A stretch of 64,000 nucleotides of DNA. It comes from Acanthamoeba sp. SK_2022b. Its lineage: Eukaryota; Discosea; Longamoebia; Acanthamoebidae. Positions 1-60,935 of this stretch are shown here, piece by piece; the stretch's first letter is position 1; each line of letters starts with the position of its first letter. A program made the position numbers and the translations under genes. Under the pieces are notes generated by a model. It ran no database searches, was not told the DNA's origin, and saw only the letters and a list, made by a program, of their open reading frames with translations. The stretch is from the NCBI GenBank assembly GCA_027943245.1, contig JANDJZ010000033.1, positions 51,016 to 115,015 on the forward strand, read 5' to 3'.

Positions 1-1573
1 AATACCCTGTCGCTCAGCATCCAACCCGCATATTTAAGGGTCTTGTCGTTGAGGAATTTGATGGGATAGGCGGCCACCCACTCGCCCAGGCTGATCACGC
101 ACTCGGCCCTGATCTCGGCGAAGATGTCGCGGTAGCGATGCACGAAGATTCTGCACAAGCGAGTGGCCACACGCGAGTCAGCGAGAAAAATGGCCTCGGG
201 CCAGCGTTGCCCTCAGAGCCACGAGACGCACCCCTTGAAGATCTGATCCATGCGCTCGTCGAGAATGTCGATCTTGTCCTTGAGGTCTTGTGCCTTCTCG
301 GTCAGGTCGCGCACTTTGGCAGTCTCGTTCTTGGTGGGCCGGGCGCTGGCCTTGCTCTTGGCGCTCTTGATCTGGCGCAGCGTCACCTGCAGCTCCTTGG
401 TGATGATGTTCACGACCTTGATGATCGAGCCCATCAGCTGCAACCCGAGCAGGGTGCCCGTGTGACGGAAAGGACGCAGCGCCGAGCTGTAACAGAGAGA
501 CACAACACAACACAACACAACACAACACAGACGAGAGAGAGAGAGAGAGAGAGAGCCACTTAGCGCAAGGCTCTGAATTTCCAAGAGAGTTCATGCTATG
601 CCGCACCTGGACACGACCAGGGCAATGGTGACCAGGTTGCCGAGGAAGGCTTCGTCGTAGATGATTGTGTATTGGGTCTTGTTGATGAGCTTGTCCCAGA
701 ACTCGAGGAAGTTGTTCTTGAACTTTCGCATCTTGCCGCGTCCGATGATCGGGTACTGTCCGCCCTCCTGCATGCAGCACGAGCCAGCGTCGGTCAGGCC
801 CCCCGGGTGGCGTACAAGGAGCCAGCTGGGGCGTACTGTACCGCTTTGTACTTTTCATCCTCCACGATGTTGGCCAGGATTCGGCCAATGTCCTGCTTGA
901 GGTAGACTGACTTGCTGACCTCGAGCGGGTAACCGCAAGCCTACACAAAGTGACGATGAACATTTAGAAGACGAAAGAGAGGTTGGACGCTCTTGCTGTT
1001 CGGCAAGCAGAGGAGAGGTTTGAATACCTTGAGAATGAAATTGAGAAGTTCGCGCATCGCCTCATGAGCCTCCTCTTGGTACCGAGAAATCCACTCGGCG
1101 ACCGTGACAGACATGGCAGTGCGATTTTTGACCATTCCTGCAATCCAATCAAGAAATTAAAATAAATAATTTTAAAGGTTCCATTAGCGGGAGCATACCG
1201 AAGAGCGAAGTGTCCTCTTCCTCTTCTTCTTCGGGGGCATTCTTCTTGCCTCTGCCTTTCTTCCCCTTCTTTGCAGGCTGCGCCTCGGCGTTCTCAGCCT
1301 CTTCGCCAGCTGAAGAAGCGCTGCGCTTCTTGCCCGCCTTTTTGCCCTTCTTTTGCGATGTCTTCCTCTTCTTAGTGGGTGAATGGTATTCTTCTTCCTC
1401 CTCCTCCTCTTCAGCGTCCTCTTCTTCTTCATGCTCGCTTCCTTCCTCCTCTCGCTCTTCCTCCCTGAATACGGGTCAAATTAATCCCAAATACGGCGTA
1501 ACAAAAAGAATGATAGCACGCACCTATCGCTCTCCCCCTCATCTTCCGACCTGTGCTTGCGCTTGGAGGACAT
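1..1573 (-). CDS. Cohesin subunit SCC3/STAG (SA), 5' part of gene; 3' end beyond the window
   Basis: This is the HEAT-repeat cohesin subunit that loads and holds the cohesin ring on chromatin in the nucleus. The start is the ATG at 1573 ([17 protein letters not shown]). It is followed after an intron by a long acidic, Lys-rich tail, typical of the disordered N-terminus. The first ordered exon reads [18 protein letters not shown]. Later exons contain [36 protein letters not shown] and [15 protein letters not shown], and finally [15 protein letters not shown] and [18 protein letters not shown] at 1-160. These follow the STAG-domain order, including the conserved 'GVFVHRYRD'-type block. One clear intron is 1138-1198; another holds CACAA repeats (501-528) and a GA tract. 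The open frame runs off the left edge, so the C-terminal half is unseen. Identity is confident from motif order; exon borders are approximate. Confidence 0.88.
501..552. repeat. CACAA pentamer array followed by GA tract in an SCC3 intron
   Basis: About 5.6 copies of CACAA at 501-528 are followed by a GA run at about 534-554. On the coding (minus) strand these read as CT and TTGTG repeats. The same pentamer family recurs in an intron at 25261-25315. Confidence 0.8.
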
Positions 1574-1745
1574 GATTATGACGCTAGCGTTAAATCCAAT
1601 TCAACGACGTTCGTGCTCGCTCTACTCTGGCCGAATGTAATGGTCAAAAAGGCGCCAAAGCGGTACGTCTCCCGCCATTTTTGCCAATTCATTTGAAGAA
1701 ATTCGAAGAAAAACTTTGTAATTCAATTTGGGCTTGGCTGCCGCT

Positions 1746-3133
1746 CTACTTGACCTTGATGATGCCGGCAGCGATAAGCTTCTGGATGTTGTTCATGATG
1801 ACTGGGTCCTTCATGTACCTGTTTGAAACAAGGACCCCATACACAATAAAATTTTCAATTATATAAAAACTGTGTAGCGCCAGCGACAGGCAGGTAGACG
1901 TACGTTTGAACGGCGGCCGGGTTGCTGCCAAGCTCGGAGAGGACCTTCTTCATCATGGGGTCGCTGAGGATGCGCTGGATCTCGGGATCATTGGCAGCGG
2001 CGGCCATGGCCTCCTTGTCCTCGGCCTCGCTGGAGCCCTCCTGCCTCCTGTTGATGGCTTCCATCGTCCGCCTCAGGCCCTCGTTGAGCTCCTCGTTGTT
2101 GGGCTCCACCTTGAGGCCCTGCTCGTAGGTCTCGAGGCACTTGTGGTACTGCTTCATGAAGAACTGGCAGTGGCCCTTACGCGTGTACGCCTTGACTGCA
2201 GCCGAGACAAAATGCCCCAAATAAATACACAAAATAATCATTAAATATATATATATATATCACACACAGCGCGCGTCATGCGGGCGAGGGGGTTACCAAA
2301 GGTGGGGTTGAGCTCGATCGCCTTGTCGCAATCCTTGGTGGCCATGGGGAACTCGCCAAGCTTCATGTAGCACGCGGCACGGTTGCTGTACAGCACGTGA
2401 TCCTGCGTGTGCGTGTTTTTTTAGCCATTTATATTTGATATTAGATTTGATATTTGATATTTTATGGGCCACGCATGTGGGGGGCGTACGGTGGGGTTCC
2501 TGCGGATGGCCTCGGTGTAGTGCTTGATGGCCTCGGGGTACTGGGCGTTCCTGAAGCAGTCGTTGCCCTTCTCCTTCTCCTGCTGGGAGATCTCGGGGTT
2601 GATGTAGTTCTTCTCCTCGCTCTCCTTCTTCAGCTGTTCGGCCTGTGGAAGAGAGGGAGGTGGTGAGTGAGATCATGAGGAGCGCCTCTTGCAAGAGGAC
2701 CTACTCCCCCCCCCAAGTTGAGCCTGGCGTGGGCGTTTCAGTCGAACGCACCTTTCGGAGGGCGTTGAGGGAGTCGGGGTTGCGGTGCTCGGTGAGGGCT
2801 CGGTTGTAGGAGTCGATGGCTTCGGCGTACTTCTCCTGCTTCATGTAGGCGTTGCCCTTGCGGTGGAAGGCCCTGTGCCACACAAGCCGCCACATGTCAG
2901 GTCGGCCCATATGAAGTGCGTGTATGTATGTATGAAAGAGAAAGAGAAAGAGTGGAGCTCTTCGTACCTCGAGATGAGCTTGTAGTCGGCAAACACTCTA
3001 CGTCCGACGTCGATGGCCTCGGTACAGGCCTTGATGCACTCGTCAAAGTTACCCTGCTCAAAGTAGACGGCTACTCACCCAAAAACGCTCATCGTGAGTT
3101 CTCCGTATCGCGTGCGCTCTTGACGTGTTGTGT

Positions 3134-3184
<51 letters not shown>

Positions 3185-4409
3185 TGCGTGCATGCGTGGT
3201 CGAGGTACCAGCCAGGTTGGTGAGGAAGGTCATGTTGTCGGGGTCAAGCTCAATGGCCTTCCTGTAGTGGACAATGGCGTTGTCAAAGTCCTTCTTCTTG
3301 TAGGCCTGGTTGCCGAGCTCCTTCTCATCCAGGGCCTGCTTCTTCTCGGCAGGAAGCTCGGGCTCGGGCTCCTTGGGCTTCTCTTCGGTCTTGGGCTTCT
3401 CCTCCTTCTTGGGCGCCTCCTTCTTCGGCTGCTGGGCGGGCTCCTGCTGAGCCTCCGCGCCCTGAAAACGAACCGTGGCAACACAGCAATAACGCCATCC
3501 AGGTCAGGCTCGTGATCACTGGCGCCAGCATAGGAGGAGCGGGCAAGCGGTACCGGTGGCTTTTGGCTGATGCCAAGGATCACTGCGAACACGTTGGCAA
3601 TGCGAGGGTCGCTCTGGAGGTACCTGCTCGCGAGGACGAGGAGTGGACAAGGAGGAGGAGGATGAGTGCCGCTCAGTTGAGCGTTGATAGGGCGTCGCGA
3701 GAGTGGCGTGTGCGTACATGGGCAGTTCGCTGGGGTTCTTCTGAAGACGAGAGAGCAGCGACACAAAGGCGGGATCGTCGAGGTAGGCTCGGGTGAGGTC
3801 GTTCTGCCTGAGCTTGGTCCAGATGTCGCCCTGAAGCATCTGGCCGAACACATTGCCGAGTTCCTCGCCGCCACCGCTCTCGGCCTGCTCTTGCTGCTCT
3901 GCCTCCTGCAGGGCCTGCTTGAGCTGCTCGTTCGTGGGCTCCACCTCCAGGCCGGCGGCGTAGGCGGCCTTGGCCTCGGGGTAGCGGCCCAAGTAGCATA
4001 GTGCCGCGCCCTTGCGCGAGTAACCCTGGCACCCACGCAACGTTGATAAGAGTCCGTTGCGTGGAGGTTTTGAACAGCTGCTGCCCAAAGAGCATACCTT
4101 GGACCAGTCGGGCTTCAACTCGACGGTCTTCTCAGCGTCGGCGAGCGCCTGATCGTAATTCTTGAGGCTGGCATGAGCAGCCGAGCGATTGCTGTACAGA
4201 ACATGATTCTTGGCATCGTGCTGAATGGCAGCTGTGTAGTGCTCCACAGCGGCCTTGAAATCGCCAGCGGACATAGCCGCATTTCCCTTGTTCTTCTCCT
4301 CGAGCGCCTGAAGTAGTACACGATTAAATTAAATTAATAAATTCAAATTGCAAGGTTCCACATTTAAAGTGAGGTGCCTCTGTGGGAGAGACCGTACAAT
4401 ATCAGCCAT
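1746..4409 (-). CDS. STI1: Hsp70/Hsp90-organising co-chaperone STI1/Hop (STIP1)
   Basis: This cytosolic TPR adaptor passes clients from Hsp70 to Hsp90. The start is the ATG at 4409: exon 1 encodes only MADI and is spliced to [17 protein letters not shown], matching the usual start of the family. Domain order is complete: TPR1 ([36 protein letters not shown]); a DP1/STI1 segment ([28 protein letters not shown]); a Lys/Glu/Pro-rich linker; TPR2A ([17 protein letters not shown] onward); TPR2B ([46 protein letters not shown]); and DP2 ([35 protein letters not shown]). The stop is at 1746-1748. At least eight introns, one holding a (GT)n array. It was ancestrally divergent from the GT47 gene with only about 170 bp between their start codons, before a retrotransposon inserted. 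Confidence 0.95.
3135..3182. repeat. (GT)n microsatellite in an STI1 intron
   Basis: About 24 GT units on the plus strand ((CA)n on the coding strand), inside the intron between the exons encoding NLA and AVYFEQGNF. Confidence 0.9.
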
Positions 4410-4564
4410 CTCGTTGACGCGGTGTGGTTCTGTGATCTGATCGCAAATCTGCGGCCGTGCAAATAAGAAAATGCACCAACACCGAACGCGTTCTTCTCTT
4501 GCGAGAATGAGGGCAGAATTCGCGTGCGCGAGCCAGAAATTCCAAGGGCGCTTACTTTTACCGC
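4410..4564. promoter_or_regulatory. Remnant of the ancestral bidirectional promoter between STI1 and GT47
   Basis: These 155 bp separate the STI1 start codon from the left retrotransposon duplication. Joining 4564 to the duplication and then to 11158 rebuilds a spacer of about 170 bp between the two divergent start codons. No TATA box is assigned. Promoter role is inferred from position alone. Confidence 0.45.
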
Positions 4565-4580
4565 GTCTGTCCCTGCAAGA
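4565..4580 (+). repeat. Left target-site duplication of the LINE (16 bp)
   Basis: GTCTGTCCCTGCAAGA, identical over 16 bp to 11142-11157. The bases on either side differ between the copies (C/A before, A/T after), so the duplication is exactly 16 bp unless the tail boundary is shifted. Confidence 0.93.
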
Positions 4581-5032
4581 AGTGTCAGGATCAGCCAACG
4601 GCGGGAGAGGATGGAGGAGGCATCAAGAGCAGCTGCGGATCGATTTTTTGCGTATTGAAGTGGATAACCAGCCACTATAAAAAGCGGTTACGCACCACAT
4701 ATGTGGGGCCGTTCTTTGCTCATTTATTCTGGCTGATTTACACATTCATTGTATCAATCGATCCCCCTCGTCTCTTCGCCTCTGTCCTCCACGTCGCGCT
4801 GCCCCCGTACCCGTCCCATCCTCCCCTCTCGATGCCTACCGGTCGCCCCCCCCCAGGCCTGAATGTCCAAAGGGGCTACCGATTTTTTATTATTAAATCC
4901 CCGACGACCTTGAGAATTAGATTAAAACGGAACCCTTTCTCTGGCGCGCTTTTCGTAGCCGTCACTCTCACTGCCCTGACCGCAACACACACACACCTAA
5001 CCCAAACTCTAGTACACGCGCACCTTATCCAA
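4581..5032 (+). other. LINE 5' leader
   Basis: These 452 bp between the left duplication and the first plausible ORF1 ATG (5033) contain stops in all frames and a short ACACAC stretch near 4985. By analogy with other LINEs this region would hold an internal promoter; no specific promoter element was identified. Confidence 0.5.
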
Positions 5033-6246
5033 ATGGAAGGTCAAGGCCCCACCTCTACCCAAGTGCCCAACCGCACGCCACCCAATCGACCCTGTCATCA
5101 GCGCCCTCCCTGTCGACCCAGCAGCCTAACCCGGGCAAGCGGCCTAGTAACAGTAAGGACGATCAGCGCTCTGTGCAAGCTCGCATAGGCGATGGATCCA
5201 GCCCGAGGGACCTGGCTTGGAGGGAAACCGTAGAAACGGAAGCGGAGGCTCTGCGAATGTCAGCAATCCAGTCGCGGATGGAGGCGGCCCGCAAGGCCAT
5301 AGCCCAGAAGCGCTCTCTCGGAAAACGCCGGTTCAACAACGCTAACAAGAGGATCGACAAGGCACTCGAGGAAGCCGAGAAGAAGTCGAGAGTCAATGAG
5401 CTGAGCGAGCAGGGCCTGATCGACCTCACCAAGCTTTCAGGGGTCGATGATCGTACTATCCGCGACATGGAGGACCAACTTGAAAGCCTGATCCCGGTGG
5501 TCTGTGTGGGCCAAGTCACGGAGGATGATTTCGCCAACATCCGCCGTCAAGTGAGGGCAATCTGCAGAGGTCTTGTTGAGGACGACAGCAAGCTCGAACC
5601 CGAAAAGCAGGCTCTCACGTTGGCCTTCGAGAATGAGACGGACGCAGACCGAGTCAGGACCTCCGACTACATCGCCAAGCTTGGCAAAGTGGTGGAGGTT
5701 TACTCCCTCCCTCGTAAAATACTGACTGGCGACTGCCGCTGCGTAGGCCTGGTAGAAACTGGAGAAGGCTTGGAGCTAGCAGACGTCATACGTGATGCCC
5801 GCACCCTGGACACGAACTACAAGAGCGTCCGAACTACGGCCACTGGGGGATACCTAGTAGAGTTCTGGGACCCGGTATCACTCACAACGTGGCTCCGCTC
5901 TCCCATTCTGAAGGAAAGACGTGAATGGGCCAAGAGCGAGTCTATCTACTCGAGAGCTCACCTCACACGCTGGATCGGACGGCTCCCTGCCTCGCTCACC
6001 CCTACCATGGCGGCCAGCATCCTCCTCAAGGCCTGGGGGGTATCTGGCAAGGTAAAACTGATCAGAGAGCCAAAAACTAACCGGTTCAAGAGGTGCGGCT
6101 ACGTAATCTGTGACTCGGCAGCAGACGCAGCCCGCCTCTCAGGGCTCAAAGGCTCCCTTTCCTTTGATGGCCTGACGACGAGTGTGGTGGACACCATCAA
6201 CAAGCCCAGACCCGAAGATGAGTCAGTCTCTACCAATGATGACTGA
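5033..6246 (+). CDS. LINE ORF1 (putative RNA-binding protein), start region uncertain
   Basis: The main frame is open from 4921 to the TGA at 6244-6246. Its N-terminal part is rich in Ser, Thr, Pro and Gln. A helical, probably coiled-coil stretch follows (about 5245-5400: ARKAIAQKRSLGKRR, KRIDKALEEAEKKSR). The C-terminal part ends in an RRM-like segment (about 6040-6190: GKVKLIREPKTNRFKRCGYV, then an Ala/Leu-rich helix). No CCHC knuckle is seen. The frame has no ATG before about 5257. The nearest good ATG (5033, MEGQGPTSTQ) lies in the frame one base away and ends at 5188, so a one-base indel or a non-canonical start must be assumed. ORF1 proteins of LINEs bind the element RNA; that role here is inferred. 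Confidence 0.7.
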
Positions 6247-9200
6247 CATCGCTGCAACACTGATGGTCCACCCCAATAAACCTTTCTTCAAAATCCAATC
6301 AGTCAACCTCCATGGAGGTTGGGACCATAAGTTACCCCACCTGGTCCATTGGCTTGCTAAGCACGCTCCTGACGTCCTACTCATCCAAGAACTGATGTTA
6401 ACCAAGGAGCAGGCCAGCTTCGCTCAACTTGATGGATATACAGCGTTCACCAACTGCCTCTCCAGAGAGCAACTAGCAGTAATGAGTTTGGGACAGGTGC
6501 CCAATGGTAGCCACGCAGTCCCGCTCATGGAACGCCTCCCAAGCCCCAAATGGGGCACAGGAGTATGGGTCAAAAAAGGTCTGGAAGTGACTGATGTCAC
6601 GCCCACGGCAACATGGGCAGCTGGCCAGGTGTGTGCAGTTTATGTCGCCACACCCACTGCGCCACTCCATATAGTAAGTGTCTACGCACCGGCATCAGGT
6701 CATACAATAAAGGAGGACTTCTACACCCAACTTTGGGATTGGTCATCCAAACTTAAAGGGGAGTTACTCTTAGGTGGGGACTGGAACATGACCCTCTCAC
6801 AAAAAGACCAGAAACTTGGCAAGTTCAACCACGAGAAAAATGCCCCCCTCCGACAACTGGATGATGACCTCTCACTTACAGACCTCTGGCGTAAACTCAA
6901 CAAGGGGCGCCCGGTAGAGTTCATGTGGAAAGGGGCGTCCAGCAAAAAGGCACAATGAAAGAGGCTTGACGCATTCCGCACTAACCAGCCTGGCGAGTAT
7001 GTCCAGTGCCGAGTCATCAAGACTGGGTCATTTGGCTTGGACCACAAACCCATTGAGACCATCTGGCAGTGGACCCCATTACTGGAGGCGCCTACAGTAC
7101 TGCACGTCAAGTGGAGACTTCCCTCTGACGTCACACTGGAAGAGCGCGTGAAATTCAACTCAGTCTTTACTTTGCACACTGACCCAGCTAACACAGTCCT
7201 CCCTCTGCTGGACGCTCCTACCCAGATGGACATTGATGTGGCCTCCTGCCGTATAGCTGACGCCCTCCTGGAGGCCACCAGTGCAGTACTTGCAGATCAT
7301 GCATCTGCAACTCCCCCTCCCCGCCCAGATGAAGGTATCAGGCATAACAAAGAGTGGGGCTTGGTCCATAAGGCGCGCAAACGGCTCTTAGTGGGGCAGA
7401 AAGCGCTCAAACGCCTCACGAGTAGTACACCAGACAACCCTCGTGACTACGATCGCCTTGTCCGCAGGGTTAAGAGAGCCCTTAGAGTGCTGCCTCACCT
7501 GGACTACAGAGATGCCCTCCAATTCATCCAAGACCAAGTGGTGTGCCAACAATGGTTGGCCAACACGGCAGCTAAGGCTAGAAGCCTCCGCGTCGAAATG
7601 AACACCATATGCGATGAAGACAAAGCCAGAAGGATAGGGTACATCATTGAGCAGTTGCGCAGTGAAGGCGACACCAGGTCCAAAAGGTTCTTTTCTAAGA
7701 TACGCCGCGCCCTCCGCCCAGAGAGCAACCAAGCCGTCAAGATGGCCATTGAGGACAAAGATGGGGAGAGTAGGGTGCTCACTGAACCCACGCAAGTGAG
7801 CGATTACATCCGCAGAGTGTGGGGTGAATACTTTGGCCCTCGCCCCCATCCTGAACATGAGCTCGAAAAGCCTACTGACTGCCCACAAATCCCGCCACAC
7901 TTATCAGATTGGCTCCTCTCCCACATCTCACTGGATGAGTTGAGGACCGCGCTAGCCAGTATGGCCAACAATAAAGCACCAGGACCCACTGGGGAAACAG
8001 CGGACATGCTTAAGCTCCTAGACACAGACAACCTCCAGGCCATTGCACACCTCTACAACGCAATCCTCAACACTGGCATCACGCCATCCATATGGAAAGA
8101 GGCCCTCCTCTATGGCATCTACAAAGGCGGCAACCCCAACTATCCGCTCAACTACCGCCCAATTGCCCTGCTCTCGGTACTGTATAAGCTCTTCTCTAAA
8201 GCCCTCACTTCTCGCTTGTCAGAAGCAGTAGAAGATAGTGGTGTACTGAGCTCTGCACAAGGAGGCTTCCGCAAACAACGCTCCGCCCTTAGCCACGTTG
8301 CGGCACTCAGAGGCATCATGGAAGAAGCCAAAGCGCTTAATAAAGAGCTTCATGTAGCCTACATTGACCTAGCAGGGGCGTACGACTCAGTACCACTTAA
8401 CCTACTATTTAACACTCTGAGCCATTACGGAATGCCGCCCAGATTCGTAGCCCTCCTCAACAGCCTTTACGCGGACAACACTCTTAGAGTGGTGACAAGG
8501 TATGGACTCACAGGGGGAGTGAAGGTTGCACAAGGGGTGCGCCAGGGAGACCCTATGTCCCCCCTACTCTTTAACCTTTTTATCAATCCCATCGTACACC
8601 AGATCAACGCCAACAGAGAAGGTTACACACTTGAGAGTGGCGATTGTGTTGGCATTCTAGCCTACGCAGATGACATAGTCCTGATCAACAGCTCCAGTCA
8701 AGGCGCCGAGGCATCATGGGGCGTGTTTAAGGAGTGGTGCAGCCGATCGGGCATGACGATCAAGGCTGCTAAGTCGGCCTACGCAACAAACCGCCCACAG
8801 ACAAGCACCCTTATGACAGTAGAGGGAGAGCCTATCCGCAATCTGGGCACTGATGGCGCCTATAGGTACTTAGGCGTGCACCTCCGCCTGGACCTCAAAT
8901 GGGATACACATGTCTTTGAGGTCCGGCGAAAGTTCAACAGAATCATGAACTACCTGGCACACCGGGCCATCACTGCTGCCCAAAAAGTGCTTCTTGTAAA
9001 TGCCATGGCTCAATCCATGGTGGGGTACAGCATGGGCGTAGTCAAATACCCATTAGAAACACTCACCCAGATGGACCGCACTCTTCTCAAGGTCGTAAAG
9101 CGCGCCCTCAGACTCCCCTCCGACACGCCATCAGCGTGGCTTTGGGCGGACACCTCGTGTGGTGGTATGGGCCTATGCCGGCTTGAGGACACGCAGGCGG

Positions 9201-11038
9201 CAGAATTCCTCAGCACTACGGTCGACCACATTCTCAAAGGACCGGACGTACCGGGCAGGAGGGTCCTGCTGAGTAACATCTACTGCTATCGAAATAAAGG
9301 CGACAGGGAGCTCCTCACGATTAAAGGGACCGTAGGACAGACCTCACGCCCGTCTCTGCATACAGTACACCAGCTGGTCAAGGAGATGAAAGCAAGCCAC
9401 CTGGACATTATCTCAGAAGCGGTGGAAGAGCAGGCCCGCTCAGTTAACATGAGCCCTCTACCAGAAGAGTTGGCCAATTCAGCAGAGAGACGCCACGCTG
9501 CCCGGTCCTCAGTCGCGATACTCCAGTCGGATCCTCGCTTCCTGGCCGCACTCCATCGGATACCCCCCCCTGCCCCACTTACCCCCAGCCCGATGGTAAC
9601 CAGGGTCACGCTAGACACCCGTACGACAACAGAGGAACCTGGAAGTGTAGTGTTGCGAGAGATCCGCTGCAAACGCATCACCCGCCTACACCACACCGCT
9701 AGCAATGGCAACAAGCACTACACGTCTGAGGGGGAGCTCCTAGTGTGGACAGACGGGTCGCGCACTAGTAATAGTGCAGGATATGGGGTGTACGTGGGGG
9801 TAGGCAACCCAGCCAATGTAGCAGCCCGCGCCATAGGTGACCAGACGTCAGACAACGCAGAGCGACAAGCAATTCTACACGCTTTGGAGACCCACGCCAC
9901 GATACCCAGGCTGTGCATCATCACTGACAACGAATCAGTACAGACACTCGTCCAATGGGCAGCGGGCTCAAGCTCCAACAGAGTCTCTAAAATACACAGG
10001 GCAGTAGAAAAGAGAATAGTGGCCCTGGTCAGACAGCGCACATCGCAGGGATTCGCCACCAGATGTGAACACGTGTTCAGCCACATCGACAAGAAAATCA
10101 AAGAACGCAAGAACGACAGTAAGTGGCAAGCTAGGTTGGCGGCACAGAAGGGCAAATGGGGCCCTCTGTTCCGGAAGATCGTCAAAGGGAATGAGGCCGC
10201 AGACCAGCTCGCGGCCAAAGGGGCGGCTATGCCGTGCCCGCCAAAGTACTCACGCTTGGCAGGCCAACAGGCCGACATTGGCGTCTTCGTACAAGGACAG
10301 TGGACGGATGAGAAGCTTGGCCGCGTCGCCAAGGCGGGGCGGAAAGAGGCGTACAACACGTACGTAAAACAACGTGGCTGCGCCGGGGTCGTGGAACCAA
10401 CGGAAGTCAACTGGGGGGTGGCCAGCCTTGCCACCAAGCGCCCACGACACAAGGACGAGCCGTCCCTCCGCGTGGCGATCGCCCTGAAGTCGGGGCGGTC
10501 GAGATCGGCCCTTCACCGCTCCCGGATACCGGGAGAGCTCAGCGATGGCCCATGGTGCCCACTGTGCGTACGCACAAGTGGGAACAAGGTGGAGGAGGAC
10601 AATGTCCACCTCCTAGGTGGATGCCCGGTTACGGAGATGGTACGACTCACAGCCGTGGAAGAAGTCACGAAGGTACTACAATCCCACGCCACTACTTCTG
10701 CTGACGCCAGAGCGTGGGCCGAATGCAGCCCGCAGCGCACCACGCAGCTCCTGCTAGGGCTCCTCCCTTGCTCCCTCTCGAAGTTACTCAAGCCCAGGGA
10801 TATACATACGGCAAAAGGTACGGTCCGCTGGAAAACCAAGTACTCGAGCGCAGCCCTCCACGCCGCAAGAGCCATCTACCAGGACCGCAACCTCCGACTC
10901 CGCGACACCCTCAACAGCCCTCCACCCCGAGAGCCGACACCCTCAACACTCACAGGAACAAGCCCACCACACACAAACCAGCTCACCGACGTCCACCTCG
11001 TAACGAATTCCAGTCAGACCGCCGACCAATCCCCCTAA
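6236..11038 (+). pseudogene. LINE ORF2: APE endonuclease, reverse transcriptase, RNase H, zinc knuckle; one in-frame stop
   Basis: About 1,600 codons in one frame, interrupted only by TGA at 6956-6958. The APE-type endonuclease shows its catalytic series: SVNLHGG (Asn), LLIQELML (Glu), VYAPASG, GGDWNMTL (Asp/Asn), RLDAF and LDHKPI. The last two lie just after the stop. The RT core runs from about 8090 to 8780: NYRPIALLSVLYK, AYIDLAGAYDSVP, QGVRQGDPMSPLLFN and catalytic AYADDIVL (TAC-GAC at 8663-8674). RNase H begins at VWTDGS (Asp near 9752) and continues through AERQAI, ITDNESV and GNEAADQLA. Near 10552 a C-x2-C...H-x4-C knuckle follows (WCPLC, HLLGGC). Start candidates are the ATGs at 6236 and 6239, overlapping the ORF1 stop. 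Called pseudogene because of the stop; readthrough cannot be excluded. Confidence 0.88.
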
Positions 11039-11141
11039 TGTAAATAACCAGAGCAGGAGGCGCCACGGAACACTTCGTGTGACGTCATTATGACGTAGCG
11101 CTAGGCTCAATAAAAGACCGTTAGAAAGAAAAGAAAGAAAA
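11039..11141 (+). other. LINE 3' UTR with polyadenylation signal and A-rich tail
   Basis: A short 3' UTR contains TGACGTCATTATGACGT near 11080 and AATAAA at 11109-11114, and ends in GAAAGAAAAGAAAGAAAA. The tail meets the right duplication at 11142. After insertion this region is the immediate upstream sequence of the GT47 gene. Confidence 0.75.
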
Positions 11142-11157
11142 GTCTGTCCCTGCAAGA
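11142..11157 (+). repeat. Right target-site duplication of the LINE (16 bp)
   Basis: Identical to 4565-4580. Its final base is the A of the ATG of the GT47 gene, so the duplication rebuilt the start codon. Confidence 0.93.
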
Positions 11158-13298
11158 TGGAGAGGCAGCGCTGTTTACGCAGATGTGGCTATCGAGAGCT
11201 ACTCTTCTTCATGATCGCTATAGTCGGGATCTACTTTGGGATCGTCGTCGTGGAGATCGACACCCAGAGCTTCCTTGTCGACACGCTCATCCCTGCAGAT
11301 GAGGGCGAACCCTGCTCGCCGTTGTTCAAGCCCGTTTGGCCCCCCATAAGATCTCTCCTTGCTCCTCGCTCTTCCGCCGCATCCGCACTGGGTCCTGCCC
11401 AATGGTCCCCTTACCGAGAGGATCCTACCGATCTTCACGCCCAGCTCGCCAAAGTAACCTTTTACCTCATCACTTCCTTCATGACCACTCACAACAACGT
11501 CTGCACTTCCGGCACCAAGAGCTACATGCCACCATTGATTTGGCCTGATGCCAGGGCACCCACGGACATGAGAAGTGAGCTGCTCTTCTCCTCGATGCTC
11601 CGTCGCTCTCCTTACCGCACGTTCGACGCGGCGCAGGCCTCGCTGTTCTTCGTCCCCGTGTGGCCCTCCTGCGTGGGTCGGGCGGCCAACACTACGCAGG
11701 CGTGGCTCTTGAATTCGACAGAGTGGCGAGACCGGTATAGGGCAGCTCCCGGCACCTTTCTAGTTCTTCATGAGGAGGCCAACCAGGACAAGGTCTTCCT
11801 GGGCGACGTAAACTTCACGGTCCTGCTCACCGACGGTGTCAAGAAGAAGGGAAAGGGGTTCGGGCTGCCCAATGCTGGGAAGGATATCGCGATGCCTTAC
11901 GCTACCTCGGCCTCCTTCCTCTACGCGCTCGCCGACGAGCACCTCCACGGCATCTCGCGGCCGTACCACTTCTGCGCGCATTGGAACAGGGCCAAGATGG
12001 CCTTCAAGCCCAACATCTTCATGCGTATCCACGACCTCTTCACCGATCCCGAGGGCGGTTTGGCCGGGCAGCTGGCCCCCGATTTTGCCAACACTATAGC
12101 GCACGACCACTACGTCCAGCGAATGGTGGAATCAGTGTTCTGCGTGGTAGCCAATATCCGGGCACTCTTCGACATGCTCGCTGGGGGCTGCATCCCCATC
12201 CTCTTCTATGACCGGTGGCAACTGCCCTTCCTCAACCAGATCCCGTGGCATGAGATGGTCATCTTCGCCCCCGAGACCACCAAGGGCAACTACTCGCACC
12301 TAGTTACGCAGCCACAACCCTCCCCCTCGTCTACGCCCCGTCAGGAAGAGAGAGTTGATCAGCCAGCCGGCAATGCGACCGACCCTGCCAGAGTCGATCA
12401 GCCAGCCGGCAATGCGACCGACCCTGCCAGAGTTGATCAGCCAGTCGGCAGTGCGACCGACCCTGCCAGAGTCGATCAGCCAGCCGGCAATGCGAACGAC
12501 CCTGCCAGCTCTGCAGAGGAGCCAGAGAAGGACAGCGATGCGACCCAACCTGTGCTCCATATGTCGCAACAACCCTCCCCCTTCACGACGCTCCGCCAGG
12601 AAGAGAGAGACAATCAGCCAGCCGGCAATGCGACCGACCCCGCCAGCTCCGCAGACGAGCCAAAGCAGGACTTCAACGCTACCCAACTTGAGCTCCGTGT
12701 GTCGCAACCCTCCCCCTCGACAACACTCCGTCAGGAAGAGAGAGTCGATCAGCCAGCCGGCAATGCGGCCGAGCCTGCCAGGTTGGGTGGCGTTGCTGCC
12801 CTTCTCAGTCGGGAGTGGTCACTGCCACAACACTCCCCCTCGGCGACACTTCGTAAGGAAAAGCGAGACGATCCCGGCAACGCTGTCAAGCCTGCCAGCT
12901 CCGTAGAGGAGCCAAAGAAGGACAGCAATGACGCCCAACCTGAGCTCCCTGTGTTCGAGAACAAGCAGGCCTTACAGGCCCAGCTACTGCGGCTCGTCGA
13001 CGACCGCGAGCTGCAACGTTTCATGCGGGCCAACGTCATCAAGTATCGCCGGAGGTTCTTCTTCGGCATGGGCACGCCCGACCAGTGGGACGCCGACTGG
13101 GACAGCCCGGTGGTCCCGCCCGACCGCGAGTTCTATAGCGAGGGATCGCTCCTGGTCGAGTCCACCTTGTTGGAGGCCCGCAAGAGGGTGCTGCAGGGAT
13201 CGCCGGGCCCACAAAAGCCGTCCACACTCAGTACCATCGACGACCTCGCTGCCCAGATAGACATGCTGCAGGCAATGAGCAGACTCGAAGCCCGCTAA
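11157..13298 (+). CDS. Exostosin-family (GT47) type II membrane glycosyltransferase, single exon
   Basis: A 713-residue intronless frame. After a short basic tail there is one membrane anchor (about residues 15-33, LLFFMIAIVGIYFGIVVVEI), giving Golgi type II topology. The exostosin domain follows: HFCAHWNRAKMAFKP region, FCVVANIRALFDMLAGGCIP (the sugar-nucleotide-binding block of the family), ILFYDRWQLPFLNQIPWHEM, and a final helix LQRFMRANVIKYRRRFFFG. Between the last two lies about 220 residues of repetitive, Pro/Gln/Asp-rich sequence (12301-12960) that splits the catalytic domain. The donor sugar cannot be deduced. The ATG is the first in frame and spans the edge of the LINE duplication, so the native 5' UTR has been displaced by 6.5 kb. 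Confidence 0.85.
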   Translation: MERQRCLRRCGYRELLFFMIAIVGIYFGIVVVEIDTQSFLVDTLIPADEGEPCSPLFKPVWPPIRSLLAPRSSAASALGPAQWSPYREDPTDLHAQLAKVTFYLITSFMTTHNNVCTSGTKSYMPPLIWPDARAPTDMRSELLFSSMLRRSPYRTFDAAQASLFFVPVWPSCVGRAANTTQAWLLNSTEWRDRYRAAPGTFLVLHEEANQDKVFLGDVNFTVLLTDGVKKKGKGFGLPNAGKDIAMPYATSASFLYALADEHLHGISRPYHFCAHWNRAKMAFKPNIFMRIHDLFTDPEGGLAGQLAPDFANTIAHDHYVQRMVESVFCVVANIRALFDMLAGGCIPILFYDRWQLPFLNQIPWHEMVIFAPETTKGNYSHLVTQPQPSPSSTPRQEERVDQPAGNATDPARVDQPAGNATDPARVDQPVGSATDPARVDQPAGNANDPASSAEEPEKDSDATQPVLHMSQQPSPFTTLRQEERDNQPAGNATDPASSADEPKQDFNATQLELRVSQPSPSTTLRQEERVDQPAGNAAEPARLGGVAALLSREWSLPQHSPSATLRKEKRDDPGNAVKPASSVEEPKKDSNDAQPELPVFENKQALQAQLLRLVDDRELQRFMRANVIKYRRRFFFGMGTPDQWDADWDSPVVPPDREFYSEGSLLVESTLLEARKRVLQGSPGPQKPSTLSTIDDLAAQIDMLQAMSRLEAR
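12301..12960 (+). repeat. In-frame coding repeats inside the GT47 domain
   Basis: Four head-to-tail 39-bp units at 12351-12506 (13 residues, RVDQPAGNATDPA) lie within a larger, degenerate repeat beginning with a Pro-Ser/Thr-rich block then RQEER (about 12310, 12570, 12705, 12825). All units keep frame. Confidence 0.9.
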
Positions 13299-13365
13299 CC
13301 TGTGCTTGAATTAAAATATATTTATTTATTTATTTTACACAGAACACCACGAAGACCCATTTACA

Positions 13366-14160
13366 CTAGACGTTGCGGTTATGGTCGCCGCCGCTCATGA
13401 CGTCGAGCTGGTTGACGACGTCCTCCATCGAGGGTCGCTTCTTGGCCTCGGCGTGCCAGCACTTCTTCATCAGCTTCCTGAACGGCACCGGGCAGTCGCC
13501 GGGAATGGCCGGCCGCCGGCCCTCGAGCACGTCGAGCGACACGCCCATGAAGTTGCGGCCGGCGAAGGGCTGCTTGCGGGTGAGCACCTCCCACATGATG
13601 ACGCCGAACGAGAACACGTCGGCCTTCTCCGAGTACTTCTCGCCGCGGATGACCTCGGGCGCGGTCCAGCAGGGCGTGCCGCAGCGGGTCATGGTGGCGT
13701 TCTCCTCCTTGATGCGCGCAAAGCCAAAGTCGGCCACCTTGACGTTCATGTTCTCGTCGACGAGCAGGTTCGACGGCTTGAGGTCCCTGTGCACGATCAC
13801 CGGGTGCAGCGAGTGCAGGTAGTTGATGCCCAGCGCCGCGCTGTGCAGCATCTTGGTCTTCTGCTGCCACGTCAGCTTGACGCCGTTGTTGCCCAGCATG
13901 TCGCGCAGGCTGCCGTTCTTGACGAACTCGGTCACGATGCACAGGTTGGGCCGCTTCACGCACGCGCCGATGAAGAGCACGATGTTGGGGTGGTGCAGCT
14001 CGGCCAGGAAGGCCATCTCGGCCCTGAACTCGAGCATGCGCCGCTCGTCGAGCTTCTGCTTGATGAACCGCTTCACCGCCACCTCCACGCCCTTCCACTT
14101 GCCCCGGAACACCACGCCATACGAGCCCAGTCCGATCTGTTCACACACGCGCCCAGCCAT

Positions 14161-14228
<68 letters not shown>

Positions 14229-14562
14229 TGATGATGATGATGATGATGATGATTGTACCTGCTTGCCGACCGCGATCTCGTTGAAGTCGATGACCCAACG
14301 GCAGAGGTTGGCCGACGTGAGGAAGTTGTCCTCCTGGAACATCATGCCCTCGCCCACCACGGCCTGCACCTCGCCGCTGCTCGTGCTCGACTCGGACCGC
14401 GCCGACCCGTGGCCGCCCCTGCTATGTCCCTTTCCCTTGTCGCTCCCGCTCTGGCCCGACGACGGCGTCTGCTCCGAGTCCTTGTTGTGGAAGCCTCCTC
14501 GCGAGACGCCGCCAAAGAACCGGCCCTCGAGCCCGCGCGGCTTCAACTCGTACAGCTTGGCC

Positions 14563-14628
<66 letters not shown>

Positions 14629-15924
14629 TTAGCCAAAGACATCGTGATTACTGGGTTGTGGGGGGGGAGCACGGTACCGTGGGGCGCGTCGGGCATCTCG
14701 AACTTGCCGAGGCACACCATGCGCTTGGCCTCGCCGCCGGTCAGCTCGCTGTCGCGCACCTTGGCAAAGGTGGCGTCGGAGAGGAGGATCTGGCCGCCGT
14801 GGGTCATGGCGGTGATGCGCGCCGCGGCGTTGATCACCGGGCCGATGTACTCCACGCGCCTCGTCATCGGGTCGCGCACCATGCGCGGCTGGCCATAGTG
14901 CACGCCCATGCGCACGCGCAGGCCCTTGTAGACCACGCGATCGTCCGTGTCGCCCCACTCCTCGGCCGCGCCCGGGTGATCGAGCAGGGCCTCGGGCCAC
15001 TCGAGCTTGACCAGCTCCTGCTGCGCCTCCATGCACCACTCAAGCGCGTCGGCGGTGTTCTGGAACGCCATGCAGAACGAGCCTTCGCCGCTGTTCCGGT
15101 CTCTGTGTGTATGCGAACAGTTGTTGTGGGTCACGTGACGATGTGCCACGTCAGCACCCATACTTGATGCCCTATGACAGGCCCGTGGCAGCTGTCAAAT
15201 GGGAAGCGGGAGGGGGGTAGTGTACCGGATGAACACGACCTCGTAGCCGCGGTGCTTCTTGAGCAGGGACCGCAGCAGGTCGTTGTGGAGGAGGGTGGCG
15301 TCGCGCATGGCCTCGGCGTTGAACTCCCACAGCGAGGCGGCGCGCGTGATGTCGGAGAACACGACCGCCATCTCGCCCTCGGGCGCACGCACGCCCCCGG
15401 CGTTCCCGCCAGCCGACACGGCCGAGGCTCGACCTATTCGGCGCACGAACGGTTGAGAGCCGCGAACGAGAGAGCCCAAGAGGGGGGGGGTGGGCTTGTA
15501 CCATCGGAGCTGGACGAGCCTGTGCTGTTGTTGCTCGCCGAGCCGGCCGAGGGCATAGTCCACGAGCCAAAACGATCGGCGGTGACGCCGCCGGGGCCCG
15601 AGGAGGACGACGTCGAGGTCTTGGTGAACGACGACGTGCCGCCCTCGCCACCAAACGCGCTCAGTCGCGTCATCACCTCCTGTTTGTAGCCCCCCCCCAA
15701 ACAGCGGTGATGAGAACGGGAGAGAAAAGAGGAGGAGAGGCGACGGGAGCGAGGGTAAGTCAAGAGCTGATACCAGGAACGAGGGGCGGATGGTCGGGTC
15801 GTGGTGCCAGCAGTTGCGGATGAGGTCGACGAACTCGCTCGGCACCGTCGCGTCCTCATGCTCGGGCAGCGGCGGCCTTGCGTTGTCCCTGAGCACTGCC
15901 ACTGCCACCGCCGCCGGACTTTAC

Positions 15925-15995
<71 letters not shown>

Positions 15996-18900
15996 CAGCA
16001 TTAGCCGACCAGGTGATATGGGCAGGTTGAGCGGGCGGCGTGATACCTCATGCCGAGGTAGGGCTGCTGGCGGGTCATCAGCTCCCAGAGGATGATGCCG
16101 AACGAGTAGATGTCGGCCAGCATGAAGTCCACCTCGACCATCTCGTTGAGGATCTCGGGCGCGGTCCAGTGCACGCTGCCCTGGACCTCCTTGGTGTTGG
16201 CCCGGTTCATCTCCTCCTTGAACTTGGTGAGGCCAAAGTCGGAGACCTTGACGTTCCACTTGGAGTCGAGCAGCAGGTTGAGCGACTTGAGGTCGCGGTG
16301 CACGATGCCCGACGAGTGGAGGAAGTGCATGCCCTTGGCCGCCTGGTAGGCCATCTTGTTCCTCAGCGCGAACGGAATGTCCGGAATGAGCTCGTTGTGC
16401 AGCAACTGCGCTCGCGTTGGTTGCCACGTCAGCATCAAGAACCAGAGCCATCGCAGGCGGTGGGGGAGAGCGGGCGGGCGTACATCAAAGAGGGAGCCGA
16501 GGGCCATGTACTCCATGACGATGCACATCTTGGGCGGCTTGGTGCAGGCCGCCATGAAAAGCACCACGTTGGGGTGGCGCAGAGCGGTCATGACGCGCAC
16601 CTCCTCCTTGAAGTTGCGCTCCAGCTCGCGGCCGGCGTTGTCCGAGATCATCATCTTGACGGCCACCTCGGTGCCCTTCCACACGGCCTTGTGCACCTCG
16701 CCGTAGCCGCCGGCGCCCAGCTGCTCGCCCATCTCCAGCTCGCCCATGTCGACTTCCCAGTCGTCCTCCCTCCGTCGCGAGCGCCGCACCCACACCAGCA
16801 GGCCGGCGATGATGCAGCACATGATCAGCAGCGCGATGGCTGCTCCAGGAATCACCGAGCCGAGCACGGCGCCCAGCGGCACGTCGCTCCCGGTGCTGGT
16901 GGCGGTGACGATCTCGCAGTAGTTTCCCTCGTATCCGGATTCACACAAACAGGAGCCGTTGCCCTGGTCCTGGTTGCACACGCCGTGGTCGGAGCAGAGC
17001 GTGCTCTTGTAGATGCAGCCGTAGACGGAGCTCACGTGCTGGCCATCGCACATCATGCCCGCGACAAAGTCCAACAGCCGGGCTCGCACGGGCTTCGACT
17101 GCCCCGGCACGCCGAGGTAGTTTCTGTATTTGTGTATGTTTTTTGAGTTTCATATTAGCTTTTTTATGTTTGCATATTGCAGAAAACAGATAAGCGTATA
17201 TTGATTTATCAGATATAAAACAGAATGTGTAACAGGGGGGGAACGCACTTGGCGGCGAGCGTCGCAGCGGCGGCACTCGTCTGACTCCAGTAGATCCAAT
17301 CGACCAGACCCTTGGCCTTGGTGCAGTCGACCATGGTGGTTTGATGCACGATGAACTGGTGGTAGGTAGTCATCGGCCAGCTCTGCGCACCTGGGCCTGT
17401 TTGGTTTTGAGTTGGTTGTTGGTGATGATGAGACACGCATGGTATGGACAACGGGGGGAGGGCATGGCACATACCGTTGATGAAATCGCTCACGCTGGCG
17501 TCGCTGCTGAAGTCGTCGACGGCCGAGAGCAGGGAATCGTAGGTGGGCGAGACGCGGTTGCCCGCCGGATTGATAAAGTCGGCGAAGCCCAGCTGGCGGT
17601 TGGCCCTGACCTTCTCGTAGAGCCACACGCCCATCGAGTAGGTGTTGTTGGCCAGCACCCCCATCGGGTCGCCCGCAATGATGAGGCGTCCGGCGTCTTC
17701 CACCGGAAAGTGCGCGCTGCTGTCGCAGCCCGCCTGTGAAGCATCACCACAACACCAGCGTGAGAATCGTGCGAGGGCTAGCTTGTCGACAATAAAGAGC
17801 TCTCCGAAGCTCGTACCGTTTGATTGAAGTCGACGCTCGCTTCGCACATCGACTTGACGAAGACGTTCGTGATGAGAGTGGTGGTGGAAAGGACCATGGT
17901 GATGGGCATGCTGGGCAGCCGGCTGGCGAGCGTGGGGTTGAGTTCGCGGATGGCCTGGTGGTCCCACGTGTCGACGATGCCGAGCATGATGTCGGCCAGC
18001 GTGGTGAGGTCCAGCACCAGCGAGCCGCGGCCAATCAGTTCCGGAACCTAAGCGAAGCCGTGGTGGGAGGACAGTGAGCACGTTTGGAAGAGCAGAGATA
18101 GAAGGGGGGGGGGCAATGTACGTTGTAGCCAATGCCGACGGCGTAGGCCAAAGCCGGCACCTGCGTCACGTCGGAGGTGTCGCGTTTGGAGGTGGCGGCC
18201 AACGAGCCGGTGATGGCGCCAAAGTCCACGTTGTCTAACGGAGCCGTCAAACATAATGATTAAAAAAATGCAATGTTGAGCACAGGGAGGGGCAGGTACA
18301 GGCTTGCAGGTCGGCGATGGCTGTGGCCGTGGGATTCTCGAAGTAATTGAGTTGAATGTTGGCGGAGTAGTAGGCGTCCATCCAGGCGGGGTACAGGTTG
18401 AAGAGTAGACCCTCCCCAATCAGCACGGTGAGTTCGAATGCACGATCGCCATTGCAACTCACGAGGCCCAGCAAATCGATCATCTTGCTGGATTGTGGCA
18501 GGCGTGTGAGGACACGCACGATCCATCTAGCAGATGCGCGCGCACACCACACAGACGACGTACGTTTTGTAACCGAATGGCATGGGCGCCACGTTGAGGT
18601 TGGTCTTGACCTGGTCAATGACGTGAGGATTGAGTTGCGACCAGGAGAGGAATGACATTAGCCCCTGGATGTACGAGCAGTCCGACAGATTGCTCGACAC
18701 ATTCAAGAGCGCGTAGCTGACCAGGCACATGGGCCACGACGTCGAGTCGTTGCCATTGACCACGTCAACACCGAGGTAGTCAGAGTGGATGTTATCTGTC
18801 ATCTCGTTGAGGGCAGATTGAACTGCAGCAACGGTCGAGTCGACAATTACACCTGAACGCGGTAACAGGTCAACCATCGTTGGGGTAACACAGGTTCATC

Positions 18901-58443: not shown

Positions 58444-60935
58444 TCGTGGAGAATGGATCGCTTCTGCAGATGATCAACAAGCTCGGCGTGTTTCCCGAGA
58501 GCTTAGCGGCCATCTATGCCGCACAGATGCTCAAGGGCCTCATCTATCTCCACGAGAAGAACGTAACACACAGGTGCCTCCTCTCTCCCCCTTCCAGTCT
58601 CGACCACCTTTTTGTCGACTGGGGACTGACCCGCTTGGTTTGGCCGTCGCAACGATCGCAGGGACATCAAGGCCTCCAACATACTGATCACGCTCGACGG
58701 CCTGGTCAAGCTGGCCGATTTTGGAATTGCCACGACGGGCAACTCTGTCGACGGGGACCAGTCGGACCTCGTCGAAGGCTCTCCCTTCTGGAGTACTCCC
58801 ACCACCATCTCAACCCCCCCCCCCCGCAACCAACAACGGTCGCCTAAACCTCGGCGGGGGCGTAATGTTGTACAGTGGCGCCGGAGATCATTCAGCTGGA
58901 CACGCCGACGACGGCGTGCGACATCTGGTCGCTGGGCTGCACCGTGCTGGAGCTGATCACGGGCGAACCTCCCTACTTTGACATGCCGGCCATGTCCGCC
59001 CTCTTCAAGATCGTCCAGGACGACCACCCGCCCATCCCCGATACCCTCTCCGAGGTAGGGAGACATGTCCCCTCTCTGCCCCTCCCCGAGCCCTCACGCT
59101 CACCCCCACTCATGTCGACAATAATCACTACGACAATAACAACAGGGCCTGCAAGACTTTTTGCTGTGCTGCTTCAAGAAGGAGCCGTCGGAGAGGGCCA
59201 CGGCAACACAACTCCTCAACCACCCATGGATCAAGAACAGCTCCCCCATTCTGGTAGATCTTTGCTCTCTCTCTTCCTTCGAAGCGAAAGAGGGCGGTGG
59301 CTGATCCCGTCGTCGGTTCTGGGCAGAATGGGCTGAGCGAGCTGAGCTTGCGTGAAGCGCAAAGCACTGTGCGCTTGCACAACAACGGGGCCGGCTCGGA
59401 CAAGGAGTCGGGCAGCAGTGGTAGTGGTAGCAGCCGCAGCAGCACAAGCGGGCGTTCCGGAGCTGGCCGGTGTTCGCTGCGTTCCATCGATTGGGGCACC
59501 TCCTCAAACGACAGCGAGGTACGCCTACCACCCAAGTGTGATAGAGAGAGAGAGAGAGAGAGCAAACAGCAACAGATTGACGAAAGGTCGGGCCGCCTCT
59601 CCCCTTGGGACAGGTCACCAACTCTTTCGAACAATCGGCCATCGAAGACTCGGACGAGTGGGAGAAGCCGAGCAGGCCGGTGCGTGTGCAGGACATTTCC
59701 TCGCGATTCGAGGTACCGTACTCCTCGCCCTCGCTTATACAGCCCATATCCACCACCATCCATTTCTGTATATAATGCACTGGCAGCTGGCTGTCTGCCT
59801 GCCAATAACGATAGCCTATTTTTTAAATATTTATTAAACGATTTCTTTGTTTTTCTGTTGTCTCGTCGCCATTTGCCCGGACTTGTTCCTTTGCCCTTGT
59901 GCTTGTTGTGTTACTGTCTCAGGATTTGGCATATCAGGAGTCGGTTGGATATGTCGTGCTCATCACTGGCTTCGAGACCCGCAAAAACAAGCTCATGTCA
60001 TACACCGTACGTCGTACCTCTCGCTCTCCCTCTCTCTCTCTCTCTCTTCGTGTCTCGCCCGTGCGGGTGAGGTTGGCTCAAGCTTTCTCCTTCTCTCCCA
60101 ACACCTCACCGTTTGCTCTCTTCTTGGTGGCACAGGTGTTCCGTCTGAAGGTGTGTCTCGGGAAGGAGACGTGGCGGGTCTACAAAACCTACACTGACTT
60201 CAAGGACATGCACGGACAGGTACCCCTCGTGCTCTCTCCCTCTCCCCCCCCCCTCGGCGCTCCATCTCCTGCTTGCGTCGTCGCGGCTGACATGGCGGTG
60301 TTCCCGGCCCCGAACCCACCGCAGTTGCGAGCGCGACTTAAGAAGACGAAGAGGAAGGGCGAGATGCCCAAGTTCCCGAGCGGCAAGATGTTTGGTGCGG
60401 ACAAGGAGGACTTTGTGAAGAAGCGAAAGCAAAAGCTGCAGACCTACATCTCCGAAATACTCAAGATCCCCGAGGTCATGAAGACCGGCCTCCTCACAGG
60501 TAAACTCTTCACACGCCTCGCCGCTCCCGACACACGCACACACAGCAACCAATTGTTGAGTGACCTGAACCCGAATTGACCGAATGACGCGACGACGTGA
60601 CCACAGACTTCCTGAAGACCAACGGCCACGACGTCATGTCCCTCGGATTCCAAAAGGAGGTCGAAGGTTTGACAACGGCTACCCCGCCTCCCGCTCCATT
60701 AGAGCGTACGCTTGGTCCCACCAGCTCGCGCAACTAGGACTCACGCGCGCGCTCTCACGTGTCTGCAGAAGAGCCGCTGCCCGAGCGGGAACGGAAGCCG
60801 AGCGTGCACGTGATGCGAACCTCGTTGCGAGCAAAGGAGAAGAAGGCCCGGCAAAACGTCGAGCGGGAGATCGGGGAGTGGACCGTCGAGGATCGAACAA
60901 TCGACGCCGAGGAGGGCGAGCTGAGCCCCCACTAG
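57423..60935 (+). CDS. Cdc7/SepH (MAP3K-epsilon-like) protein kinase fused to a C-terminal PX domain
   Basis: Start at 57423 ([15 protein letters not shown]). After a basic N-terminus the kinase begins in the exon [20 protein letters not shown], with VAIKRL, then [35 protein letters not shown], and [17 protein letters not shown] (HRD split by an intron). [42 protein letters not shown] and [15 protein letters not shown] follow. GSPFWMAPE and the short αC pattern are typical of the Cdc7/SepH/MAP3K-epsilon branch (septation and cytokinesis signalling). A Ser/Gly-rich linker leads to a PX domain: [81 protein letters not shown]. The tail ends EEGELSPH, stop 60933-60935. About 13 exons. PX binding to phosphoinositides would place the kinase on endosomes or plasma membrane (inference). 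Confidence 0.88.
58377..58440. repeat. (CA)n microsatellite ending at a 3' splice site in the kinase-PX gene
   Basis: About 32 CA units run directly into CACAG before the exon [12 protein letters not shown]. Confidence 0.9.

Follow-up and report, generated by a model that had tools for sequence, protein, structure and literature searches.

A LINE in the spacer of a head-to-head STI1/GT47 gene pair, and its empty counterpart, in an Acanthamoeba assembly

We analysed a 64,000-nucleotide stretch of DNA from Acanthamoeba sp. SK_2022b (assembly GCA_027943245.1, contig JANDJZ010000033.1, positions 51,016 to 115,015 of the forward strand; hereafter the window), in which a long interspersed nuclear element (LINE) separates a gene for an STI1 (Hsp70-Hsp90 organizing protein-like) protein from a gene for a GT47 (exostosin-like) protein. 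We are highly confident that this LINE, which is full-length or nearly so, inserted by target-primed reverse transcription into the 170–183 bp spacer of the head-to-head STI1/GT47 pair. The evidence consists of a perfect target-site duplication and an empty version of the site in the window's own assembly, which was the genome searched (44.9 Mb, 1,129 contigs). In the contig naming of this assembly the window contig is C498; C505, C398, C851, C595, C719 and similar labels denote other contigs. The following features define the locus.

1740–4409, − strand: STI1 gene, start codon at 4409–4407, several introns, left limit approximate
4410–4564, no strand: STI1/GT47 spacer left of the duplication, the head-to-head spacer before insertion
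4565–4580, + strand: left copy of the 16-bp target-site duplication (repeat search; single copy on C505)
4581–11141, + strand: LINE, 6,561 bp (duplication on both sides, absent from C505, Pfam domains)
11142–11157, + strand: right copy of the duplication, 16 bp, ending on the A of the GT47 ATG (repeat search)
11157–13298, + strand: GT47 gene, 713 aa (list of open reading frames (ORFs), Pfam, C505 comparison)

The sequence GTCTGTCCCTGCAAGA occurs twice in the whole window, at 4565–4580 and 11142–11157, and has no occurrence on the opposite strand. An earlier reading of the window, made from its letters only (the sequence-only reading), had described a perfect 16-bp duplication around a 6,561-bp element and had placed the last base of the right copy on the A of the GT47 start codon. 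We recover both: position 11157 is the A of the ATG at 11157–11159, and exactly 6,561 bp lie between the two copies. The duplication stands out from its surroundings. Between 3500 and 13000 there are 44 repeated 16-mers, of which GTCTGTCCCTGCAAGA is the sole one not wholly inside the internal repeats of GT47, and the longest word common to the two 61-bp ends reached 10 in 2,000 shuffles, compared with the perfect 16 bp observed.

The empty site lies on C505. Searches of the assembly with 4300–4580 and with the right flank (from 11142) each returned one further allelic-looking place, on this contig; the remaining rows were short matches to LINE ends. The two flanks meet on C505 and overlap by exactly 16 bp, at C505:62753–62768, where a single GTCTGTCTCTGCAAGA (15/16 identical to GTCTGTCCCTGCAAGA) is followed by TGG and the GT47 ATG is whole. 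Both LINE-side 16-mers have C where the empty copy has T. An empty site had been proposed as a check of the sequence-only reading, and this search carries out that check in silico, finding one 16-mer and no LINE. Because C505 holds the empty site, the insertion is real and is present in one of two assembled versions. The C505 sequence thereby bears out the identification of a LINE with a target-site duplication, its insertion point inside the GT47 ATG and the splitting of a head-to-head pair, which is seen intact on C505. Without the LINE the two start codons are 170 bp apart, as the sequence-only reading had estimated, and on C505 the distance is 183 bp; the pair thus lies within the 1 kb by which head-to-head bidirectional-promoter pairs are defined, and its spacer is a candidate for the shared promoter that the sequence-only reading saw there. 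No TATAA is present on either strand of the spacer at 4410–4564.

Left and right flanks on C505 are identical to the filled version at 276/281 and 549/556 aligned positions, respectively, leaving aside a 13-bp length difference that is due to 13 extra bases on C505 just upstream of the 16-mer. The single-nucleotide polymorphisms (SNPs) and this length difference set the C505 flanks apart from the filled version, as an independent haplotype would. We infer that C498 and C505 are homologous copies of one locus. They are collinear from the C505 contig end (opposite C498:49117) to window position 14227 with 98.2–98.5% identity, which drops to 93.7% in the alignment covering the GT47 start and repeats. 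The LINE is the largest difference within the collinear stretch; the others are the length of the GT47 repeats and a microsatellite near 3155–3165.

An assembly artefact, either a misjoin or a collapsed repeat, is hardly conceivable as the origin of the filled arrangement. The assembly is fragmented (1,129 contigs), but a misjoin would not be expected to produce a 16-bp duplication whose counterpart stands once, at an empty site, and our DNA search found no near-identical second LINE copy that could have been collapsed. A more serious alternative is that C498 and C505 arose by a recent segmental duplication and that the LINE entered one of two paralogous copies; the mechanism would be the same, and there would be two GT47 genes, one of them disrupted. 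The identity of only about 98% and the departure of C505 from C498 beyond window position 14228 would fit such an origin. Nevertheless, we regard it as unlikely, as on the other side no breakpoint interrupts the collinearity up to the C505 contig end and each flank search gave just two places.

Several points weigh against insertion into one of two homologous copies as we describe it. C498 and C505 could be paralogues, as set out above, and some 3 kb from the insertion site, at a CA microsatellite, C505 passes to a different partner, possibly through a misjoin. The first 29 nt of the LINE (4581–4609) are common to no relative found, which makes any reading of its exact 5′ anatomy tentative. 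The case is built on assembled sequence. At the CA microsatellite itself (window 14163–14228; C505 about 59782–59864), C505 switches from about 98% identity to pieces of 77–88% that match window 13415–16765, the region of a kinase-like gene; the switch is possibly a misjoin or a structural difference.

Target-primed insertion of LINEs is well known, and as a mechanism the event is an ordinary LINE insertion. If the order of nicks follows the usual model, the bottom strand would have been nicked first, between 4564 and 4565, and cDNA would have been primed there. A top-strand nick 16 nt downstream, between the A and the TG of the GT47 ATG, would then account for the 16-bp duplication. GT47 on the filled copy keeps its ATG, the 15 bp of leader before it and the context GCAAGATGG, and the rest of the native spacer now lies between STI1 and the LINE 5′ end. 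This is what the target-primed model implies: the right-hand copy is never parted from the right flank, the top-strand A alone is resynthesised, and the ATG is therefore kept automatically. The sequence-only reading had the duplication rebuilding the start codon. The ATG is indeed kept, but no rescue is necessary, because any insertion with its first nick upstream of the ATG would spare it. Likewise, the statement that the LINE landed exactly at the start codon describes the second, top-strand nick, but not the first, which the model places 16 bp upstream. We see no sign that the start codon was aimed at, and the landing in the GT47 ATG is best read as a coincidence.

The LINE itself is composed as follows.

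4581–4609, + strand: leader between the duplication and the 5′ block, 29 nt, unique in the genome (genome search)
4610–4690, + strand: 5′ block common to the 5′ ends of family-B LINEs (see below) and three other contigs, with TATAA at 4676 (sequence comparison)
4921–6246, + strand: ORF1 open frame, stop to stop (ORF list; without a Pfam match)
6236–6958, + strand: first part of ORF2, apurinic/apyrimidinic (AP)-type endonuclease (Exo_endo_phos), ending at an in-frame TGA at 6956–6958 (Pfam)
6959–11038, + strand: second part of ORF2, RVT_1 and RNase_H (Pfam, structure-sequence match)
11051–11108, + strand: predicted three-way RNA junction in the LINE 3′ untranslated region (UTR) (fold prediction; a C398 relative is predicted alike)
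11109–11141, + strand: AATAAA at 11109 and GAAA-rich 3′ tail (sequence)

In ORF2 the AP-type endonuclease (Exo_endo_phos, 7.8e-9) lies upstream of the reverse transcriptase (RT; RVT_1, 8e-35) and the RNase H (RNase_H, 1.4e-8) downstream of it. The in-frame TGA separates the endonuclease from the RT part, and this copy is therefore probably non-autonomous, unless the TGA is a sequencing error or is read through. Long terminal repeats (LTRs) were not seen at the LINE in a repeat search, and Rfam gave no match within window positions 1–16000. A bacterial promoter scan was set aside as uninformative for a eukaryote.

The predicted three-way junction in the 3′ UTR has a z-score of −3.02 (1/200 shuffles as good). 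The corresponding piece on C398 is predicted to fold into the same junction (z −1.87, 9/200 shuffles as good), and between conserved edges the sequences of the two junctions differ. Judging from these two sequences, the junction may be what the reverse transcriptase recognises. The LINE 5′ end folds no better than its shuffles (z 0.56). One hairpin of the predicted junction is formed by the palindrome TGACGTCA (window 11080–11087, 70 nt upstream of the GT47 ATG), which as DNA could also be a factor-binding site.

By its domains the element is an APE-type LINE with RNase H, putatively of the I-like group. It shares with these LINEs two ORFs, an AP-type endonuclease, RT, RNase H, a target-site duplication and no LTRs seen, and it stands apart by its GAAA-rich tail and by its distance from them: outside the genome, where 24 of 7,993 scored candidate proteins reached E ≤ 0.001, identity is about 29% at best. 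Among proteins of solved structure, the RT core matches R2 (6.8e-39) and LINE-1 ORF2 (2.4e-26) in sequence. The RNase H match of the window LINE lies beyond the span of both, and its AP-type endonuclease is a further difference from R2. Among the papers listed in our literature searches, none describes the present insertion in its title or the start of its abstract, most subscription journals lying outside the coverage. The TRE elements of Dictyostelium are LINEs that target tRNA genes (PMC5006619); their host, like that of the window LINE, is an amoebozoan whose genome is compact. ARAGORN, run with a bacterial setting that intron-bearing tRNA genes could escape, found no tRNA gene in the window or at five related loci (L018, L051, L025, L012 and L013).

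The DNA search found no other close copy of the LINE in the genome, the longest other match being 66% identical over about 700 bp; among shorter matches, three contigs share an 84-bp stretch at 81%, and C398 has one of 47 bp at 87%. At the protein level a search with 34/102 candidates scored listed 51 LINE-related matches in the genome, the best of which are 46% identical across half the query, or about 40% where most of it is aligned. In-frame stops inside these 51 matches comprise 16 TGA, 3 TAA and 3 TAG in copies that are related and thus non-independent; the predominance of TGA might stem from biased mutation at methylated CpG.

Two relatives have duplications of their own and support the mechanism of insertion. 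The relative on C398 is severely truncated, to 89 bp, but its 16-bp duplication is perfect and its tail is likewise rich in GAAA; on C851 a family-B copy has a 13-bp duplication. The family-B LINEs (C719, C595, C851) resemble the window LINE in about 40% amino-acid identity over most of ORF2 and in a similar 5′ block around GTGGATRACCARCCAC. Unlike the window LINE, they exist in several copies, mutually 97–98% identical, and they have another 3′ tail, with the shorter duplication on C851.

The leader between the duplication and the conserved 5′ block is 29 nt in the window LINE and 27 nt on C851 (C851:49438–49464). Both leaders match nothing else in the genome: with up to 3 mismatches allowed, a 28-nt portion of the window leader has a single occurrence, and so has the C851 leader. 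Capture from a surviving source copy is therefore not seen. The family-B 5′ ends on C719, C851 and C2 differ just upstream of GATGGAG, yet C719 and C851 are 97–98% identical elsewhere. A leader of near-constant length but varying sequence would be odd; the duplication is readable in two cases only.

The 84-bp match on C990, C808 and C594 (L003–L005, L014–L016) consists of a LINE-like 5′ block with a perfect 25-nt core. We rejected the idea that it is a captured host promoter, because family-B LINE 5′ ends resemble the same block, which is more likely LINE sequence. On L005 a 72-aa frame, MESHRPAIEL..., starts with an ATG at a distance of 93 nt downstream of the block, which may be a LINE remnant or a LINE promoter beside another gene. 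A motif search gave 16 hits, compared with 1 for a reversed-pattern control. Eight of the 16 (C1028, C260, C316, C360, C394, C468, C637 and C1063; L053, L055–L061) belong, by eye, to a different dispersed repeat, and one (C86) is a probable chance match. In this dispersed repeat stands ATGGATCACCAGCCACTTATAAG or a close form of it, a sequence similar to the block with the TATA at the LINE 5′ end.

The related sites also bear on whether the position at the start codon is due to chance. LINEs of this group might favour promoters, particularly in spacers between divergent genes, and come to lie head-to-head with a host gene, within or next to a divergent promoter; the host promoter would then also serve the LINE 5′ end, at the expense of the gene beyond the LINE. 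We consider both the targeting and this arrangement quite improbable. The window and C398 copies do lie within divergent spacers, the pair on C398 being an F-box gene (ATG at L018:5205) and a DUSP-domain gene (ATG at L018:4649), and the family-B copy on C851 lies about 130 bp upstream of a head-to-head gene resembling amino-acid permeases, this distance being measured from the duplication to the gene start. At three sites, therefore, the 5′ neighbour (STI1, the F-box gene and the permease-like gene) points away from the LINE, and two of the three (window and C398) are true divergent pairs. However, three sites, each with an even chance in a compact genome, are few, and the permease-like gene falls marginally short of the Pfam cut-offs (best 26.9 versus 27). 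The family-B copy on C595 runs to the contig end on its 5′ side, and a 317-aa open frame that points towards this LINE ends at its 3′ side; by eye the window and C398 junctions have no target motif in common. On C719 there is a possible head-to-head neighbour without Pfam support. With so few sites and the counter-case on C595, we do not advance promoter targeting as a firm claim; a preference for head-to-head sites is a weak lead from three sites, and coincidence is the reading that we retain for the window.

Both genes of the pair have recognizable relatives. The STI1 protein, with exons joined by hand, has its best match in Acanthamoeba castellanii (87% identical along the full query), which fits an Acanthamoeba that is probably not the strain of that record. 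The 713-aa GT47 frame contains an Exostosin_GT47 domain (2.8e-15, Pfam), and two relatives were found among 7,993 scored candidates, with identities of 55% and 42% across 41% of the query. Its 39-nt tandem repeats (window 12351–12506) vary in number and give 713 aa on C498 and 674 aa on C505. The frame is open on both contigs, with 0 frameshifts and 0 stops; 33/674 compared codons differ, 20 of them nonsynonymously, counts that speak neither for nor against decay of the filled copy.

The statement of the sequence-only reading that GT47 now has the LINE 3′ end as its upstream sequence is correct for the filled copy, where the LINE 3′ UTR precedes the gene. Besides the AATAAA at 11109, this upstream region has two upstream ORFs, both very short, at 11038 and 11090, and the TATAA of the LINE, at 4676, sits in the block that resembles family-B LINE 5′ ends. 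STI1 is probably little affected by the insertion. According to PMC12344493, LINE and LTR elements of A. castellanii, above all the younger copies, are preferentially methylated. Of the two outcomes named in the sequence-only reading, a new promoter or silencing, the likeliest for the filled GT47 copy, given such methylation and a LINE 3′ UTR upstream, is silencing; this copy has probably lost most of its transcription. The second, uninterrupted GT47 copy on C505 was beyond the reach of a reading confined to one window; because it is intact, any silencing concerns one GT47 copy, and the C505 copy presumably covers for the filled one.

A filled and an empty version of one head-to-head spacer in one assembly, marked by SNPs, constitute a clean natural experiment. 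The locus could show what a LINE does when it parts a gene, right at the start codon, from the sequence that lay upstream, and whether the freed promoter drives the LINE.

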